Positions 570 to 39,414 of a stretch of DNA of 64,000 bases are shown here, in pieces. Location of the stretch: positions 21,381,146 through 21,445,145 of the forward strand of contig OY720348.1 in assembly GCA_963082975.1 (NCBI GenBank), written 5' to 3'. Position 1 is the stretch's first letter. Each line of letters starts with the position of its first letter. The notes under the pieces were generated by a model. It was given only the letters and a program-made list of their open reading frames with translations. It did not search any database and was not told where the DNA came from. The position numbers and the translations under genes were made by a program. Source of the stretch: Labia minor (taxonomy: Eukaryota; Arthropoda; Insecta; Dermaptera; Spongiphoridae).

Positions 570-619
<50 letters not shown>

Positions 620-1185
620 TGTAAATGGGTTTTCAAAAACCACTTTAACGATATTTTTGAAATTCACACCAGAGATAGTATTTATAAAGAAAGATTGAAT
701 TTTATTGATCACATCTCTGGGAAATATCATCTTCATTAGTTTTTTCTTAATTTAAATGTATATATGTAACGTCACAGCCACCGCCTGTGAGATATATATC
801 TATTCTTAAAATAAAATTAAAAATATTTATATTATATTCATATTTGAATTTTATTGCATTAATAGATACATTTAAATTATTTGAAATTGTTTCACAACGT
901 TTAGAAGATTTATCTTTATTCGATATAGAATTAAATGACGTCATCAATTTATTATACAGCAACTCCGTAAATACAAAATATTATAAACTAGCTGTTCAAT
1001 CAGTATATTAAATAAAACATTTATTTGTTTTTGTATTCTTACTTTTAATATATTTTAATTTAATCAGTAAATTAATTATATATTATTATTGTAAATGTTA
1101 TATCTATCTATCTCTGTATTCTATGGTAGTCGAAAGTTCTTGGCCGCAACATCCACATTTCTCGAAGTGTCTCTTCATACATTAT
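525..1185. repeat. Dispersed repeat family H/I, left part
   Basis: The first 260 bases belong to family H: TTATCATACCAGCAAAAATT, a TA tract, then blocks also seen at 17.1, 19.2, 33.3, 42.0, 54.7 and 56.4 kb. From about 1,010 the sequence matches 7,440-7,600 closely (family I), including the words GGCCGCAACAT and TTCATACATTAT. The homology stops at 1,185, where an insertion begins, and resumes after 1,781. Confidence 0.7.
574..613. repeat. TA dinucleotide tract
   Basis: An almost uninterrupted AT/TA run inside family H. Similar runs mark the same position in other H copies. Confidence 0.85.
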
Positions 1186-1773
1186 TATAGGATCTGAAAA
1201 AATGAAATTTATTTTATTTTATTATTTTCCCATGAAGATGTTCTCGGAGCGACTAAGCAAATTCATGTTGCGCCGGGACATATATTTAAAACCTCGCTAC
1301 CCCCTCTTAGAAGCTTACGATTGGCTATAATAAGCTGGCCATCTATTGGGTCTTCGTTCAGCGCCTAGCACGCTATTGGTTGTCGAGAGTCCCCACCACT
1401 CCACTTAGATGTCACCAGCCGGGTATAAAAAGCCGTGAAGCAGGCTAGCCTGGCAGTTGAGCAGTAGTAGTAGTAGTATCGGCAGCAGCAGTTGAGTATC
1501 AGTTGAGCAGTTGAGCAGTAGCAGCGGGGCAGTAGCAGTTGTGATTCAAGACGTTAAGAAGAACATATGCGAAGAACGACGAAAATATCCGAAGAACGGA
1601 GAACGAAGAACCGAAGATTTACAAGACGTTTATTTTATCTGTGTATATATTTTTCAACAAAACGATATATTTTTTGCTACACTTTTCAATAAAAACGATA
1701 TATTTTTTGCTAATACTTTTCAACAAAACGATATTTTTTAATACATCTGCTTCACTATCGAAGCCACCAACCC
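1186..1773 (+). mobile_element. LTR-like insertion (possible solo LTR), flanked by an 8-bp repeat
   Basis: This block interrupts repeat family I. The uninterrupted copy at 7,582-7,600 reads TTCATACATTATCCACCC, and here TACATTAT is present on both sides of the insert. The insert is unlike its surroundings: it is less AT-rich, has CCAAT-like boxes near 1,323 and 1,373, a TATAAAAA box at about 1,425, purine-rich CAG repeats just downstream, and near its end three similar units of CAAAACGATAT type with AATAAA. Promoter followed by polyadenylation signal is the layout of a long terminal repeat. The ends are not clean TG...CA, and no internal retrotransposon sequence lies beside it. If it is an LTR, it is solitary. 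The 8-bp flank would be long for an LTR element, so part of it may be coincidence. Confidence 0.45.
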
Positions 1774-2130
1774 TACATTATGAATCCACCCATAATAATA
1801 TCTTACTTACTTGAAAATGAAAATCCAATTATGAGATCAATTATTTAAAATTATTTATTCACACACATATAATCTTGAATGTTCTCAGTGTTTTATAAAT
1901 AATTTAAAAAGGCCAACATTAGAAAATAAAATTAAAAATATAATAAAATATAAATATAAATATAACATAAAAATAAAAACATAAACATTCTTTGAATGAC
2001 AACAAGTAGATATCAAATTTTAAATAAGTTGACATGAACCGACCGACGGTTTGAAATAAATTAATTTCCAGCTACAGAAACAATTTCAAATAATTTAAAT
2101 GTATCTGTTAACGTTTAAGGGGTGTATGTT
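1774..2130. repeat. Dispersed repeat family I, right part
   Basis: Continuation of the copy broken by the insertion. It aligns with 7,595-7,870 (ACTTGAAAATCCAATTATGA and an AAACATTCTTTG block). From about 2,036 it changes into the GAACCGACCGACGGTTTGAA end motif of family A. Confidence 0.7.
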
Positions 2131-2925
2131 TTATGACTATTTTTTTTTTAATTTATGTTCTTTTAAATTGCATAAATAATTCCAATTTATATGATCTTAA
2201 TATATTGTGAGAATTAGATAAATAATGTAGAGAGCAAAAAATATTTAAAAATAGATATTTATTTAAATGAAATAAAATTTTTTAATTTACTGAATGAAAG
2301 TGTCTACAATAATGTCTAAACATTTTTTCTTTATAATTTTACATTATAATAACACTAATTACAGTAGTTATAATATATGGGGAATTTTCAACTTTGATCT
2401 CCGATTTGACCATGTTCCCAAACGAATTTTAAAAAACCAAGACCACTTTACATTTACACTTTTTTAAGCTCTACTCGAATCCAAAATCAAAATTTAAAAA
2501 ATCCCAAAATTAATTTAATGGATGGAAAGGAGTCAACGGGTAAAGAATATGATTCCCCTCCTATGCAAGAAAGAAATCATGAGCTCACACGTGAGGGCAG
2601 GGACGCTACTCCCTGAAGTAGTAATCTTTTCTATTGGGATCATAGAGAAGAGACTACTCGTTACCCGTCAAAATCTTTCTAATAATATTATATATTTTTT
2701 CTATTTGTTCTATTATTTATTGATATTTATAAGAAATAATAATTATTTTCTACTTAAACACTTAGGAAACAAATTTTTGATGGGTCATTTTTAGAAAACC
2801 CATTTAACAATTGTAATAAATAATTAAAAAATTGTAAAATTTTTAAAATTAATAATAATAAATTTTATAAATTTGTTAAAAGCTCGAGCGATAGCTCGGT
2901 GTTCAAGGTACTATTTATATATATA
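2131..2925. other. AT-rich non-coding DNA with family H scraps
   Basis: Short pieces of family H occur at about 2,118-2,175 (a TATGTTTTATGACTATT-like word) and 2,870-2,925, where GAGCGATAGCTC can form a small hairpin. The stretch 2,510-2,680 is not AT-rich and was not recognised. No gene. Confidence 0.5.
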
Positions 2926-3400
2926 CAGGGTGGCGCAGATGGATCGGGTGGTTTTAAACTACTTGTCAAACTGTCAATTTTAAAGATATTGGATTGAAAT
3001 AAAGTGAAAAACATGTAGTTACAATGGAAGTTTATTAACAAAAAATTAGTAGGTAAAGTTAACGCCCCGTCTTGTTGGAACCACATATTGTCTATGTCGT
3101 AATTGTTCTCTTCAAGTTGTGGGAGGAGAAATTCTTCAATCATGTTCACATAACGCTGCGAATTAACAGTGATTTCCATTGGCCCCCTCGCTCACCGGAC
3201 CTCAGGAGTTGAAGGCAGTAATTCACAACGAAATCACATCAATTCCTGGTGATGTGGTTGAGCGGGCAATGCGGAAGGACCGACTCCAAGAATGCGTCGC
3301 TCGAGAAGCAGGACATTTGATGGATGCAATTTTTAAAAACTAACTTTATCTACTAATTTTTTGTTAATAAACTTCCATTGTAACTACACGTTTTGCACTT
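2926..3400. pseudogene. Rearranged Tc1/mariner-type transposon in foldback form
   Basis: Two pieces of a transposase of the Tc1/mariner group lie head to head. On the minus strand at about 3,060-3,180 the translation is MEITVNSQRYVNMIEEFLLP, followed by a WFQQDGA catalytic-core motif. On the plus strand at about 3,200-3,345 the translation is like the C-terminal end of the same group: a QELKAVI stretch, then a tail ending DAIFKN and a stop. The outer 57 bases of the two halves (3,006-3,062 and 3,342-3,398) are near-perfect inverted copies. It cannot encode an active enzyme. The left end has the AGGGTGGCGCAGA terminus typical of the group. Confidence 0.65.
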
Positions 3401-3484
3401 ACGGGCTGATTAAGGGCTGTATCTTTTATGAATATATTTTTTTTAATTTATGTTCTTTTAAATTAAACGGCTCGGTAGTTAAAA

Positions 3485-3520
<36 letters not shown>

Positions 3521-3645
3521 CTAAAATTTATCTTATTAGTCTTGCAAACATTGTAAGTACATATCATTTTTCTGTCTTCCTATCTTGAAAATTATTAACA
3601 TGTTATTTATATTTTAAAATTAATTTCTTTCTTTCATTAATATTC
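3401..3645. other. AT-rich spacer with a TA tract
   Basis: A family H scrap at 3,415-3,475 and a TA run at about 3,489-3,515. Nothing else seen. Confidence 0.6.
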
Positions 3646-3899
3646 ATTTAGAACAGGGGTGGGCAAAAGCCGGCCCGCGGGCCGGATCCGGCCCTTTTGC
3701 TTATTTTATTCGGCCCGCCGGCCCGTTGAAAAACTTTGGCTCTTATTTCGATCTTTCATTTCATTAAAAAAAAGGTAAATTTTTTTTTACAAATGTCCCG
3801 GTTTGGTGTTTCCGAAATATGGTCCTCCGGCCCGGGAGACATTTTGAAAATTTCATTTTGGCCCGCGCTTAAAAGTATTTGCCCACCCCTGATTTAGAA
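3646..3899. mobile_element. Non-autonomous hAT element (MITE) with perfect 8-bp target duplication
   Basis: The element is 3,654-3,891 (238 bp). Its ends are inverted copies, CAGGGGTGGGCAAA and TTTGCCCACCCCTG. It is flanked on both sides by ATTTAGAA (3,646-3,653 and 3,892-3,899). An 8-bp duplication and CAGGGG/CCCCTG ends are diagnostic of hAT transposons. It is very GC-rich at the left (GGCCCGCGGGCC) in an AT-rich background and has no coding capacity, so an autonomous hAT must have moved it. Confidence 0.9.
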
Positions 3900-25980: not shown

Positions 25981-26827
25981 ATTTTTTTCTATTTATTTCA
26001 AATATATAAATTTCCTCGCCGATCTTGGCTCTTCATATGACCTTTCAAAGTTCATCAATAAAATTTAATTAATAAAGGAACAGTTGGGAATAGGCGAATC
26101 GGATGAAAACCCATGTTGACATCCCCCCCCCCCGGACACACCACTCCCACCCCACTACCTCATTTCACAACAAGTTCAACTTTGACAGAAAAATCATCTT
26201 AATATTATCTAAAAATCTTCCCTTCAGAAATCTCTCATATGGAAGCAATCAATTATCTATTCAATTTGTCTATTCAATATTGTAAATAAATGGTGAAGCA
26301 AATTTATTCAAGTTTTTATAATCTTTCACGTATCAATTTAAATTTCGTTTTTTTAGATATTTATCTTTGAAAATGTTTCAATATTTATTAGGTTTAATAT
26401 ACATATATATAAATGATTAATTAAATCCTTAAGCCTTTGTAAAAAAAGGTGACCTCATTTGATTCAAAGTAATATTCATTTTATTCTTTAAATTTCTCCC
26501 AATATACCCATAAACTGTTGGAAAAACAGACGACTTTTTAAAAATATTTTTATTTACATTTATCTTTAATCAATTCATTATTTTTTTATTTATTATTCCC
26601 TTTAATTTCATTGTCCCCGAATGAAGATATTAAAATTATCTGTAGTTGATTCGAATGATTAAACGGCTAGGAAGTATGGAGGGGGTGGTAGTAGAGAAGA
26701 TGTAATTTTGTATTTTGCAAACTTTTAATCTTTTAAGAAATCGATAAATGAATAATAATTAAAAATAAAAAAAGCAGTAATGTTTTGAGGAGAAATATTA
26801 ATAATTTATGTTATTTGAATGTTTCAG
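25981..26827. other. Intron sequence before exon 2
   Basis: A run of ten or more C at about 26,125 and otherwise AT-rich. The last bases form the pyrimidine-containing acceptor ATTTGAATGTTTCAG. Confidence 0.5.
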
Positions 26828-27189
26828 CTGTAGCGTATCCCAGCTTATACAACCCAGCAGCCGCAGCGGCAGCGGCAGCCGCGGCCGCCGCCGCAGCTCA
26901 CAATGCTGCCTTCCATTTAGGCGGTGGTCATTCTTTAGCAAATATCCATGGAGGAGGAAATGGAAGTGGAGGTTCAGGAAGTGGCAGTGTTACCGGTGTA
27001 GGAGGTTCCCTTACTAGTCATCACCATCAAGGGTTACCTCCTCCCAAACGAAAACGCCGTCATCGTACCATTTTTACAGAAGAACAACTTGAACAGCTGG
27101 AGGCGACCTTCGATAAGACCCATTACCCCGACGTGGTACTTAGGGAACAGCTTGCCCTGAAAGTCGATCTCAAAGAAGAACGTGTTGAG
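26828..27189 (+). CDS. gsc: goosecoid homeobox protein, exon 2 (alanine tract and homeodomain residues 1-46)
   Basis: Exon 2 completes alanine 130 and encodes residues 131-250. In order: VAYPSLYNP, an alanine tract of about 14, a His/Gly/Ser-rich linker with HHHQG, the basic PPKRKRR, and homeodomain residues 1-46 ([17 protein letters not shown] and so on, ending LKEERVE). This matches the insect Gsc homeodomain as I know it. Goosecoid binds TAATCC-type DNA through lysine 50, which lies in the next exon. The donor is GAG/GTAAGT at 27,190, phase 0, exactly between homeodomain residues 46 and 47, the intron site shared by many paired-class genes. The acceptor TTTCAG at 26,827 is phase 1 like exon 1. 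Helix 3 (VWFKNRRAKWR) is not encoded here; the frame continues only into intron sequence. Confidence 0.95.
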
Positions 27190-27380
27190 GTAAGTGATTG
27201 GCCTTTACGCCATTCTTTTTCTCTCACTTGACTCTTGATTTTCTTCTCAACTAAGAATGATGAATGACCTGAAGTTGCTTTTGTTCCTATACTCTTAAGA
27301 CCATTGGTAGTTTCTATTCTTCTTGGTGGCAGATTTCAATTATTATTCTAAGAAGTAATTAAGTAGAGAACTATATACTA

Positions 27381-33500: not shown

Positions 33501-33548
33501 AACTTTAAAGTAAACAGATGAAAGATCGAAGGTTTATTTGATATTAAT

Positions 33549-33565
33549 ATTATTATTATTATTAT
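33549..33565. repeat. ATT/TAA repeat at the 3' end of the retrotransposon
   Basis: Five ATT units directly abut the retrotransposon's 3' end (element on the minus strand). Confidence 0.9.
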
Positions 33566-36500
33566 CCGAGTTAATTCACTTTCTCAGCATTGCTGCTGGA
33601 AAACTTTCACCTATCCCTTTCAGATCTTATTAGGGATTAGGCTCGGTCGATGTGGGAAGGGAGTTCACCCTGACCCATACGATCCTCCGGATAATTTTCA
33701 ATTGAGAAACTTTCTGACTATGTGGCACGTTTGCAGAAGTATCGCCCTCTGTGCCTGCCCTGCGATGGTCTTCGGCAATCCTAGTTTTTCAATATTTTTA
33801 TCAAAGTTGGATGATACCACTCCCTCCGCTGACATCACCAGGGGACAGGTCGCGACTGTGTCCAGCTTCCAGATATTCTTCAGCTGGATAGCGAGTTCCT
33901 CATATTTATTTCTCTTTTCGGTTTCAGTTTTTTTGACATTATGAGTAAGAGGAACTCCTATCTCAATTATAATGGCTGTTCTGTTGGTGTTATTGATGAG
34001 AAGGATATCTGGCCTATTGTAGTCAATAGTTCTGTCGGTGAGGATGGGTCTGTCCCAATATAAAATCATGTTATTCTTTTCAACCACTGGAGCCGGGACG
34101 TATTTGTAATATGGTGGCGTCGACTTATCAAGCAGTCCATATTTTATTCCCAATTGCTGATGGATTAGCTTTGCCAGTTGGTTATGCCTGTTTAAGTAAG
34201 CGTTGTCTGCTAATGTGGGACATCCACCCATGACGTGTTCTATACTTTCGCCGACATTTCCACATTTCCTACACTTGTCCTCAAGGTTTTGCTTAAGTAT
34301 AAACTTCTCATAGTTTCTTGTTCTTATTACCCGGTCCTGTATAGCCATTAGAAACCCCTCAGTTTCCGGGTAAAGAAATCCGTTGGACAGCCATTTCAAG
34401 GAAGCGTTCTTATTCACAAACTCGTCGTTCAGTAGGGTCGGGAACTTTCCATGTAGAACTTTATTCTCCCAAGAGCCTAGGTCTTTCTTGGCGCTCACAA
34501 AGTTAGAGCTGCTTAGGTTTAGAGGCGTATATCCCTGGTCTAATTGGGTTAACATCTTCATGAGATTGTCCTCTGACTCCAGAAGTCTCTCTCTTATTTT
34601 GAGTTCTTGGGTTTTGCATAAGTTGTGTATATTGACCAAGCCTCTCCCTCCTTCTTTCCTTGGTAGGTAAAGCCTGACTGTGGAAGAGCTTTTGTGTAAA
34701 CATCGGAACTTTGTGAGCATTCTTCTTGTTGTCGTATCCAGTTTATCTAGGTCTGTATTAGACCACTTTACCACTCCGAATGAATAAGTCAACGATGGTA
34801 TTGCCCAGGTGTTGATGGCGGTTATTAAATTTTTCCCAGTCAGCTTAGTGTTGAGTATTTTTGTTACCCGTCTCCTATATTCATCGTGGAACTTGATTTT
34901 AAGTTGTGTGTGGTCGATCTTTAGGTTTTGTTGTAGGCCAAGATATTTGTATATTCCATCAGATGTCAGCTCCTCAATTCCCTCTAATCTCTCTCCTGTC
35001 AGGTATGGTTCGCCACCCCTGACGTGCAACACAGCACATTTGTCCAACCCGAAAGACATTTGGATATCTTCACTAAAGCGCTTAACCGTGGAAATCAATG
35101 AATGTAGTTTCCGATTGTTCCCAGCGTAAAGCTTCAGATCGTCCATATACAGGAGATGATTAATTGTGTTGTTGTTTCCGGCCTTAATTCTATATCCAAT
35201 ACTCTCGTTCCTAAGTAGTGTCGACAGCGGATTTATTGCAAGACAGAACCACAGAGGTGAAAGAGCATCCCCTTGGAAGATTCCTCTTCTGATGTTGATA
35301 GGTCCGATATTTGTGTTGCCCAGATGAAGGTTTGCTCTCCAAGACCCCATAATTCCCCCGAGGCAACTCACGATGTTTGGGGCGACTCCATAGATGTTGA
35401 GAGTCTTCATCATCCAGTCATGTGGTGTGGAGTCAAATGCCTTTGTGTAGTCGATGTAACCCATTGATATGTTGCGCTTTTTTTCCCGTGCGTGCTTAAG
35501 AACAATTGAGTCTATTATAAGTTGTTGTTTGCATCCCAGCGCATTACGGGTGCATCCTTTTTGCTCTTCTTCTATAAGGTTGTTAGTTGCGCAGTGTTCA
35601 TAGATTTTATCGCTTATTAAGGCTGTGAATAGCTTATAAACAACTGATAGGCAGGTGATAGGCCGGTAGTTTTTAGGGTCTGAGGCATCTCCTTTTTTAT
35701 ATAGAAGATATGTGTTACCCTCCATAAGGTGTTTAGGTATGTTTCCAGGGTCAACCAGGGCCTCAGAAAAACACTTTGCGAGGGGTGCATGGGCAGCAGA
35801 TAGGTGTTTAATCCAGAAATTGTGCAATCTGTCAGGCCCTGGAGCTTTCCAATTGCCCAGTTTCCGGGTAACATGGGCCACATCCTCGGTGGTGAATCCA
35901 TCGCAGGTCATGGGTCTTATGCCTGAACATTGTTCTTGAATTATATTTACCCAGCTTGCCCCCTTGTGATAATATGCGGGTTCGGACCAGATAGATTGCC
36001 AGTATTCCCGGTGTTTTGAAATATCATCATCATTTGGGGCGTTATGGTTTTGATTACTGAGATGTCTAAAGAATTTTTTCCTGTTGGTGAGAAATTCTGT
36101 GTTTTGGGATTTTCTTTTAGATAACTCATTATATCGTCTAAGGCGGGCTCCTTTAATTTTTGACTTCTGTCTGAACAGATCTTTTAGTTCTAAGAGTTTT
36201 TCATTGTCTTGGATGTTTATACCTGCGTCTTCAGCTAGCTTAGAGACCCTTGTAGTTATTTTTTTGGGTCGAGTATTTTGCAGATATGCATGAATTACAT
36301 CTGCATTGGATCTAAACCTTTTTATATCCGATTCAAGTCTTTTCCTCCAAGCAGGGACAAAGTCTTTCTTGGGTTCATTCCTATCACACGGCTGGTAGGT
36401 TCTCTGGCCATTAACCTCGATTACTGTAACTGCAGCGCAGTAAATGGCCACGTGGATTTCTTGCATATTTCTAGGTGTTTTAAAGTATTCAGCCAAGGTG

Positions 36501-36749
36501 GAGTTTACTAACGAGATTAGAGGTTTCGAGTTTGTGACATTCTTCAGTACAGGGATGCGAGGTCTGCTATTGGGATTCGAGCCAATATAATGTTCGAGCA
36601 GGCTACAGAATTTTTCTCCTATTTTCTTCTGTCTTTCGGGCATACCAGGTGTTAGCGGTAATGCTGTATTGTCCTGTTCAGGTGTTGTACAGACAGGATT
36701 TTGCTCGACATATTGCTCCTCTTCTGTGTTGGTCATTTGGTTCTGTTGG
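33566..36749 (-). mobile_element. R4/Dong-like non-LTR retrotransposon in a TAA microsatellite
   Basis: The element spans a 1,012-codon frame, a 3' untranslated region of about 130 bases (33,566-33,697) and only about 13 bases before the first ATG. It is bounded by ATT units on both sides (five at 33,549-33,565 and 14 at 36,750-36,791). Dong, of the R4 clade, is known to insert into TAA repeats, and R4 elements encode RT plus a C-terminal restriction-like endonuclease, as here. No poly(A) tail is seen; the TAA repeats take its place. Confidence 0.85.
33698..36736 (-). CDS. Non-LTR retrotransposon polyprotein: reverse transcriptase, CCHC finger, restriction-like endonuclease
   Basis: An uninterrupted 1,012-residue frame. 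Residues 1-250: no recognised domain; no N-terminal C2H2 finger seen. The reverse transcriptase spans about 295-620: GNWKAPGPD (294-302), NYRPI (356-360), MGYIDYTKAFDS (425-436), GIFQGDALSPLWF (485-497) and the catalytic YMDD (530-533). A thumb-like region follows. The zinc knuckle is C822-X2-C825-X8-H834-X4-C839. The endonuclease lies at about 908-965: RPD (908-910), EIGVP (925-929) and KRNKYEEL (941-948), fitting the PD-(D/E)XK nuclease of R2/R4-type elements, which nicks the target and primes reverse transcription on it. All catalytic residues I can check are present, so it may be active or recently so. The frame stays open upstream of the ATG into the ATT repeats, so a longer start or 5' truncation cannot be excluded. 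Confidence 0.92.
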   Translation of the reverse strand: MTNTEEEQYVEQNPVCTTPEQDNTALPLTPGMPERQKKIGEKFCSLLEHYIGSNPNSRPRIPVLKNVTNSKPLISLVNSTLAEYFKTPRNMQEIHVAIYCAAVTVIEVNGQRTYQPCDRNEPKKDFVPAWRKRLESDIKRFRSNADVIHAYLQNTRPKKITTRVSKLAEDAGINIQDNEKLLELKDLFRQKSKIKGARLRRYNELSKRKSQNTEFLTNRKKFFRHLSNQNHNAPNDDDISKHREYWQSIWSEPAYYHKGASWVNIIQEQCSGIRPMTCDGFTTEDVAHVTRKLGNWKAPGPDRLHNFWIKHLSAAHAPLAKCFSEALVDPGNIPKHLMEGNTYLLYKKGDASDPKNYRPITCLSVVYKLFTALISDKIYEHCATNNLIEEEQKGCTRNALGCKQQLIIDSIVLKHAREKKRNISMGYIDYTKAFDSTPHDWMMKTLNIYGVAPNIVSCLGGIMGSWRANLHLGNTNIGPINIRRGIFQGDALSPLWFCLAINPLSTLLRNESIGYRIKAGNNNTINHLLYMDDLKLYAGNNRKLHSLISTVKRFSEDIQMSFGLDKCAVLHVRGGEPYLTGERLEGIEELTSDGIYKYLGLQQNLKIDHTQLKIKFHDEYRRRVTKILNTKLTGKNLITAINTWAIPSLTYSFGVVKWSNTDLDKLDTTTRRMLTKFRCLHKSSSTVRLYLPRKEGGRGLVNIHNLCKTQELKIRERLLESEDNLMKMLTQLDQGYTPLNLSSSNFVSAKKDLGSWENKVLHGKFPTLLNDEFVNKNASLKWLSNGFLYPETEGFLMAIQDRVIRTRNYEKFILKQNLEDKCRKCGNVGESIEHVMGGCPTLADNAYLNRHNQLAKLIHQQLGIKYGLLDKSTPPYYKYVPAPVVEKNNMILYWDRPILTDRTIDYNRPDILLINNTNRTAIIIEIGVPLTHNVKKTETEKRNKYEELAIQLKNIWKLDTVATCPLVMSAEGVVSSNFDKNIEKLGLPKTIAGQAQRAILLQTCHIVRKFLN

Positions 36750-36791
<42 letters not shown>
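36750..36791. repeat. ATT/TAA microsatellite at the 5' end of the retrotransposon
   Basis: Fourteen perfect ATT units. With the five at the other side they form the split target site. Confidence 0.95.
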
Positions 36792-38127: not shown

Positions 38128-39414
38128 ATAGGTTGGGGAAAAAGAAATCCATTATTTTTACGTGAACTTCAATACTTTATTTAACATGTTTTGCATTGTC
38201 CGATTTAGGTCAAATATACACCATTTTGTTCTATAATTTGTTGCCATTTTAATGGTAGCTTCATTATGCCTCTCTCATAAAAGTCTTGGTCCTTATTAGC
38301 GAAAAACTCCAGCAATTGATTTTCACACTCTTCCCTTGATGCCAATTTCTTATCACTAAAAAAGTTTTGCAATGCAAGAAAAAGATGGTAATCGCTTGGT
38401 GCGAGGTCCGGACTGTATGGTGGATGCATCAAAACTTCCCAACCAAGCTCCCGGAGTTTCTGACGAGTCACTATAGAAGTGTGTGGCCTGGCGTTGTCCT
38501 GATGGAACACGACACCTCTTCTGTTGGCCAATTCTGGCCGTTTCTGGTCAATTGCTCGCTTCAGACGGTCCAGTTGTTGACAATAGATGTCTGAATTTAA
38601 TGTTTGGCCATATGGAGGCAACTCGTAATAAATGATTCCTTTCCAATCCCACCAAACGCAAAGCAGAACCTTCCTGGCCGTTAGTCCCGGTTTGGCCACC
38701 GTCTGAGCTGCTTCACTGCGCTTTGACCACGATCGCTTTCGCATAATGTTGTCGTATGTGACCCATTTCTCATCCCCAGTCACCATCCGTTTAAGAAATG
38801 GGTTGATTTCATTACGTTTGGCCAAGGCTTCGCAGATGGAAATTCGATCCATCATGTTTTTTGGTGTTAATTGGTGTGGCACCCAAACATCAAGCTTTTT
38901 TTTAAACCCAGCTTTGTGCAAATGGTTTAAAACTGTTTTGTGGTCGATCTTTAACTCCTGGGCGATGCTACGACTACTAACATGCCGGTCCACTTCGATG
39001 ATTTCAGTGACTTTGTCGACATTTTCGACGACGGGCCTGCCTGTGCGAGGGGCATCCTTAACGTCAAAAATACCCGAACGGAATCGACGAAACCAAAATT
39101 GCGCGTAATTAGCTGTTAAGGTATCGGGACCATAAACACTATTCACATTTTCAGCCGCCTGACTTGCATTTTCGCCCTTATCAAAGAAAAACTGTAAAAT
39201 GTACCGAATTTTCTCTTTGTTGACTTCCATCTTTAACGCCGTGTAACTCAGAACTGAATGGACAAAACAAAAAACTGCAAACGAATTCTTTTAGTGCGAA
39301 CTGTTACCTTGACAACGAGCATAAATTTGAAATTGTTTGAGCGATAATTTACGAGATATCGATCACTACAGCCATCTACCGAAAAAATAATGGATTTCTT
39401 TTTCCCCAACCTAA
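38128..39414 (-). mobile_element. Mariner element, 1,287 bp, with matching TIRs and TA duplication
   Basis: Both ends read TAGGTTGGGGAAAAAGAAAT and continue CCATTATTTTT, so the TIR is about 31 bp with only the outermost base differing. TA flanks both ends (38,126-38,127 and 39,415-39,416). The empty site is seen in copy A4 at about 63,364 (TTAGATATATTAAAATTATT), which confirms the boundaries. The length is standard for mariner. Confidence 0.97.
38205..39230 (-). CDS. Mariner transposase (DD34D), near-complete
   Basis: A 341-residue frame cut only at its very end. Residues 1-110 form the paired HTH DNA-binding part, with GRP at 64-66 and the second HTH at about 85-110. WVPHQLT is at 116-122. 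The catalytic domain has D153 (VTGDEKW), D245 (FHQDNARPH) and D280 (YSPDLAPSDYHLF), with 34 residues between the last two, the DD34D mariner signature. The enzyme cuts and pastes the element at TA sites. The frame ends VYLT-TAA. Reading on past that stop in the same frame gives seven more codons (IGQCKTC) and a second stop at 38,181, so the TAA is probably a C-to-T nonsense change in a CAA codon that trims the tail by eight residues. Whether this matters for activity is unknown. No frameshift or other stop. Confidence 0.95.
   Translation of the reverse strand: MEVNKEKIRYILQFFFDKGENASQAAENVNSVYGPDTLTANYAQFWFRRFRSGIFDVKDAPRTGRPVVENVDKVTEIIEVDRHVSSRSIAQELKIDHKTVLNHLHKAGFKKKLDVWVPHQLTPKNMMDRISICEALAKRNEINPFLKRMVTGDEKWVTYDNIMRKRSWSKRSEAAQTVAKPGLTARKVLLCVWWDWKGIIYYELPPYGQTLNSDIYCQQLDRLKRAIDQKRPELANRRGVVFHQDNARPHTSIVTRQKLRELGWEVLMHPPYSPDLAPSDYHLFLALQNFFSDKKLASREECENQLLEFFANKDQDFYERGIMKLPLKWQQIIEQNGVYLT

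Follow-up and report, generated by a model that had tools for sequence, protein, structure and literature searches.

The window, by which we mean the whole 64,000-nt stretch of DNA analysed in this study, very probably carries a non-LTR retrotransposon of the Dong-like (R4-type) kind that inserted recently in 5′-truncated form, by the following course. The protein would have come from a full-length relative and, directed by its endonuclease and by a Myb-like region at its N-terminus, would have nicked a TAA array; the nick would have primed reverse transcription of the RNA from its 3′ UTR with the hairpins, synthesis would have halted with about 680 nt at the 5′ end of the RNA left uncopied, and the cDNA would have been joined to the remaining TAA repeats. 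The priming mechanism, together with the roles given to the Myb-like region and the hairpins, is carried over from R2 and from published work on R4/Dong. The truncation, the TAA repeats on two sides, the copy number and identity, the unoccupied sites, and some covariation in the 3′ UTR were observed directly.

Structure and Truncation of the Window Copy

The body of the element (Table 1) corresponds by blastn to nt 682–3868 of the 3,868-nt full-length copy L011, and its first two bases might be array bases instead. The first-pass annotation had claimed an open frame of 1,012 codons, a reverse transcriptase (RT) with YMDD, a CCHC cluster, an RPD...E endonuclease motif (we keep the motif names used there), and ATT units at both ends, all of which were located. 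Pfam reported RVT_1 alone on the window ORF. The closest solved proteins by sequence were those of R2 (9nl2, E 1.3e-37), to which the RT aligned strongly, while the alignment of the endonuclease stretch to R2 was not significant by itself (i-Evalue 730).

Table 1. Features of the truncated element and its flanking arrays, with positions in the window.
Feature	Position	Strand	Basis or remark
Element body, 5′-truncated	33565..36751	-	blastn mapping, 99.78% identity to L011; ends read directly
ORF, 1,012 aa	33698..36736	-	residues 175-1186 of full-length ORF
Reverse transcriptase domain RVT_1	34934..35698	-	Pfam E 1.5e-26, residues 347-601
YMDD	35138-35149	-	motif inside RVT_1 domain
CCHC cluster (CRKC...H...C)	34220..34273	-	stretch aligned to solved R2 9nl2, i-Evalue 0.00096
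Restriction-like endonuclease core motif RPD...E	33956..34015	-	motif read
3′ UTR, three hairpins at 33658-33671, 33610-33641, 33585-33598	33565..33697	-	covariation, 5 families
(ATT)14 array, target array abutting truncated 5′ end	36750..36791	.	read from sequence
TAA run, 17 nt, beyond 3′ end (target and/or tail)	33548..33564	.	read from sequence

The description of this copy as intact did not hold. At five other places the genome carries near-identical copies whose frame stays open for 1,199 codons. The frame of the window copy has 1,033, a figure that includes 21 codons preceding the ATG, most of them from the in-frame ATT array. The ATG of the window copy falls at residue 175 of the 1,186-aa full-length ORF. 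Missing from this copy are nt 1–681 of the 3,868 nt, which hold the 5′ UTR and a possibly Myb-like domain at the N-terminus; the truncated end of the copy directly abuts the ATT array. Truncation at the 5′ end is frequent in the family, as 21 of the 31 copies begin at nt 1094 or later, at 20 distinct points, and the start of three more (L036, L037, and L042) lies beyond the fetched stretch. L035 and L038, which lie on different contigs, share their starting base (element nt 3155), through either a preferred stop or a shared origin.

A complete and active window copy, with an ORF starting at its own ATG, would fit the 1,012 open codons, the catalytic motifs, and the youth of a family whose copies are 99–100% identical to each other, but the near-identical copies are longer by 174 N-terminal codons and a 5′ UTR, and truncation is as common as described above; we therefore rejected the copy as a complete element and find this reading scarcely credible. 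Nor was the earlier suggestion of potential activity upheld for this copy, which, being 5′-truncated, is not plausible as an autonomous element. Because the 5′ UTR and N-terminus are missing, the truncated insertion was most likely dead on arrival. Judged from its sequences, the family has moved recently, since the copies are so alike, and the near-perfect ORF of the window copy needs no selection as an explanation because the copy is young, as its identity to the full-length copy indicates.

TAA Arrays as the Probable Target

The flanks were examined in 31 mapped copies, each with at least a 97% match to the reference copy; L017 is without a 3′ end. A flank was scored when an 8-nt or longer TAA-phase run occurred within 40 nt after the 3′ end or 45 nt before the 5′ end. 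Such a run was found on the 3′ side of 29 of 30 copies, on the 5′ side of 26 of 28, and on both sides in 25 of the 27 copies whose two flanks could be read. By the same measure, 120,762 window positions outside the element, on both strands, gave 3.2% on the right, 3.7% on the left, and 0.33% on both. The two exceptions among the 27 were L049, whose 5′ side is joined to an (ACTT)n array, and L044, which lies in AT-rich DNA with no 8-nt TAA run on either side.

Two related families gave similar results. In family B (eight copies, with proteins about 60% identical to that of the window element) and family E (five copies, 47%), a run of at least 22 nt preceded the 5′ end in 13/13 copies and a run of at least 7 nt followed the 3′ end in 12/13; in the thirteenth, L026, the end of the query had absorbed part of a short array. 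Of the 45 scored protein matches, 25 had their flanks read. Searching at the DNA level with the 3′ end as query gave 443 first-look candidates, which yielded 41 matches (40 were scored); 28 matches showed 99–100% identity over at least 190 of 194 bases.

These data strongly support TAA targeting, in agreement with the earlier proposal of a sequence-specific, Dong-type element with a TAA target; other copies, on whose TAA flanks that proposal depended, do exist, and only the two exceptions depart from it. The TAA runs might instead be made by the element itself, as a tail comparable to poly-A, rather than mark the target. The 3′ ends would suit this reading, because tail and target look alike there and TAA units occur at nearly all of them, but TAA also stands on the 5′ side across many truncation points, and the arrays are present in unoccupied copies of a host repeat, so we consider a self-made tail very unlikely. 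Runs of at least five Ile or Asn were also considered as protein-level traces of TAA flanks and were dropped, as just two Asn runs (P0097 and P0143) occurred among 184 homologous proteins.

A Host Repeat with Filled and Empty Arrays

A dispersed host repeat with two TAA arrays hosts six loci. The second array is occupied in L020, L034, and L024, the first in L029 and L037, and both in L038, by two families; thus, in five of the six loci the other array is empty, because only one was filled in each. Used as a query, the 185-nt joined empty form found a match at all 40 scored places, at 94–100% identity (1,054 first-look candidates). Three of these were at 100% over the whole length, two stopped 1 or 4 bases short, and the others ran end to end; of the 79 matches listed, the other 39 were short second pieces. 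As the search ranks the best matches, 40 of 40 establishes that empty sites exist, rather than what share of sites is empty. The right part of the repeat alone gave 40 scored matches of 40 at 99–100% (2,608 candidates). On these matches, a young, abundant repeat supplies landing pads.

For the window copy itself, no empty site turned up. A stretch of its 3′ flank recurs at window 602–765 with 92% identity, and its 5′ flank was not found beside this repeat.

Genomic Neighbourhood

The window copy lies downstream of, and antisense to, a homeodomain-coding stretch (window ORF 26785–27231, plus strand, PF00046, E 6.7e-13), which we take to be goosecoid-like. A GTAAGT splice donor follows base 27189 within this ORF, and the rest of the homeodomain, the third-helix exon, did not turn up when both strands of the window were scanned for motifs. 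The element may therefore lie inside a long intron, as the donor and the missing remainder suggest. The idea that dispersed microsatellites serve as a safe harbour stands for the dispersal of the sites, and the harbour is doubtful at this locus, given the homeodomain-coding stretch upstream. About 1.4 kb from the element, at window 38205–39230 on the minus strand, there is an open Mos1-type mariner transposase of 341 aa.

Predicted RNA Structures and a Shared 5′ Module

In the 3′ UTR, which the window copy keeps, a structure of three hairpins drawn by eye comprises 18 pairs in five families, with 91.4% of cells paired (a value reached by 23 of 500 shuffles) and five pairs with two-sided changes (reached by 4 of 500; slid controls 1–2). 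Further pair types showed no excess over shuffles (430/500 reached the value). Family B has lost the second hairpin, which is also partly broken in other families. By comparison with R2 and published R4/Dong work, the protein probably recognises this hairpin-bearing RNA when it primes synthesis.

A second fold, of 30 pairs, overlaps the first codons of the ORF in L011, L024, L033, L054, and L055, which represent five families; the window copy is without this region. It was predicted from the same five sequences that tested it, among which 95.3% of cells were paired and nine pairs had changed on both sides (0/500 shuffles reached either value; slid controls 0–2 pairs), with no excess of further pair types (421/500). 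At its ORF start, R2 carries a structured ‘5′ RNA’ involved in the regulation of integration, according to a review (PMC12203849), which adds that conservation of this RNA beyond some insect R2s still needs exploring. Because R2 has this RNA at the same place, the fold in the relatives of the window copy is a plausible counterpart by analogy, and any function would be extrapolated from R2. A strict N-terminal protein motif behind the ORF-start RNA was present in 4 of 184 homologous proteins, and a looser pattern, run without a control, in 56 of 184.

The 5′ ends of L024 (family B) and L029 (family E) have 746 nt in common at 94% identity, the sole other DNA match above 100 nt between them being 297 nt at 71%, and the proteins of the two families are 47% identical. 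Families stand side by side in the same arrays in L030 and L038. An exchange of a 5′ module between families B and E, landing next to each other, is possible on this evidence.

Placement among Known Elements

The window element is likely Dong-like, a member of R4/Dong, which is the best filing because of its target, its domain layout, and the publications. It has one ORF in which an RT domain is followed by CCHC and a restriction-like endonuclease, and it targets TAA repeats, on both sides in the proportion given above and with empty sites in the host repeat. Several related families reside together in the genome and use the same TAA landing site. Published work gives TAA repeats as the target of Dong and most insect members of the clade, and includes an N-terminal Myb-like domain in the description of R4/Dong (PMC7998251). 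Dong of Bombyx mori and the R4/Dong clade (PMC3774820, PMC7998251) share with our element the RT, the restriction-like endonuclease, and the TAA-repeat target, as well as the N-terminal domain of full-length relatives, if it is Myb-like; they differ in that the window copy lost its N-terminus and 5′ UTR. The self-cleaving ribozyme reported for Bombyx Dong was not found in the full-length relatives examined: at their 5′ ends, Rfam gave no HDV-like match in seven loci, and a crude descriptor of our own gave no hit in four regions.

The R4 name rests on features and publications, as the quick tree includes no named R4, Dong, NeSL, CRE, or Hero. Its 50 rows comprise 34 of 120 proteins, six G000 copies and that of the window, five public-assembly loci, three R2, and one L1. 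With several long branches flagged, the window copy fell in a 44-row group (SH-aLRT 99) that left R2 and L1 outside, and R2Bm, two vertebrate R2s, and L059 formed a separate group (SH-aLRT 95), likewise with long branches. Among the matches listed (the best 120 of 764 and the best 120 of 940 proteins), there was no named R4/Dong or Hero reference.

Likeness to R2 (28S rDNA-specific; PDB 9nl3, 9dou, 9nl2, 8gh6) extends to the overall predicted fold, the RT, CCHC, and the structured RNA at the ORF start of relatives. When an AlphaFold model of a full-length relative (mean pLDDT 79.6; residues 1–89 below 50) was run through Foldseek, the seven best matches were all structures of R2. The Myb-like fold match of the N-terminal domain was weak, and this domain alone gave no Foldseek match at E ≤ 0.001. 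Membership of the R2 clade is nevertheless not supported, as the target is dispersed TAA sites instead of 28S rDNA and the RT lies outside the R2 group in the quick tree.

Another restriction-like-endonuclease clade, for example Hero, could also house the element, because microsatellite-specific families are included in Hero (PMC4640811), and the tree rows hold no named R4 or Hero reference to set against this. The TAA target and the N-terminal domain that is maybe Myb-like nonetheless fit R4/Dong as published (PMC7998251), and Pfam reported no N-terminal zinc finger in four full-length relatives, so that Hero has a small probability in our view. The same source describes Togen as using (TG)n; Hero and Togen share microsatellite landing with our element and would belong to other clades.

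A search of viral contigs yielded no relative, and one of public genome contigs yielded five loci. One of these, L056 on Streptomyces narbonensis contig NZ_BMSF01000045.1, is a Dong-like element at tree distance zero from protein P0042, and its 3′ end likewise enters a short TAA run; it is probably eukaryotic contamination of a bacterial assembly.

Implications

The window locus alone is ordinary, and this kind of element is already known. The interest lies in the genome-wide picture of microsatellite targeting, filled and unfilled sites in one repeat, many truncation points, and several families. Tentatively, and with slightly more doubt than confidence, we propose that the ORF-start RNA of the relatives is the counterpart of the R2 ‘5′ RNA’, that the TAA arrays of the young repeat feed the niche, and that families sharing this niche have swapped a 5′ UTR. 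If full-length relatives do carry such a counterpart, this RNA device would predate R2 and extend beyond it. This genome offers a good natural data set on how R4/Dong enzymes read TAA arrays and on whether the 5′ RNA switch of R2 is shared.
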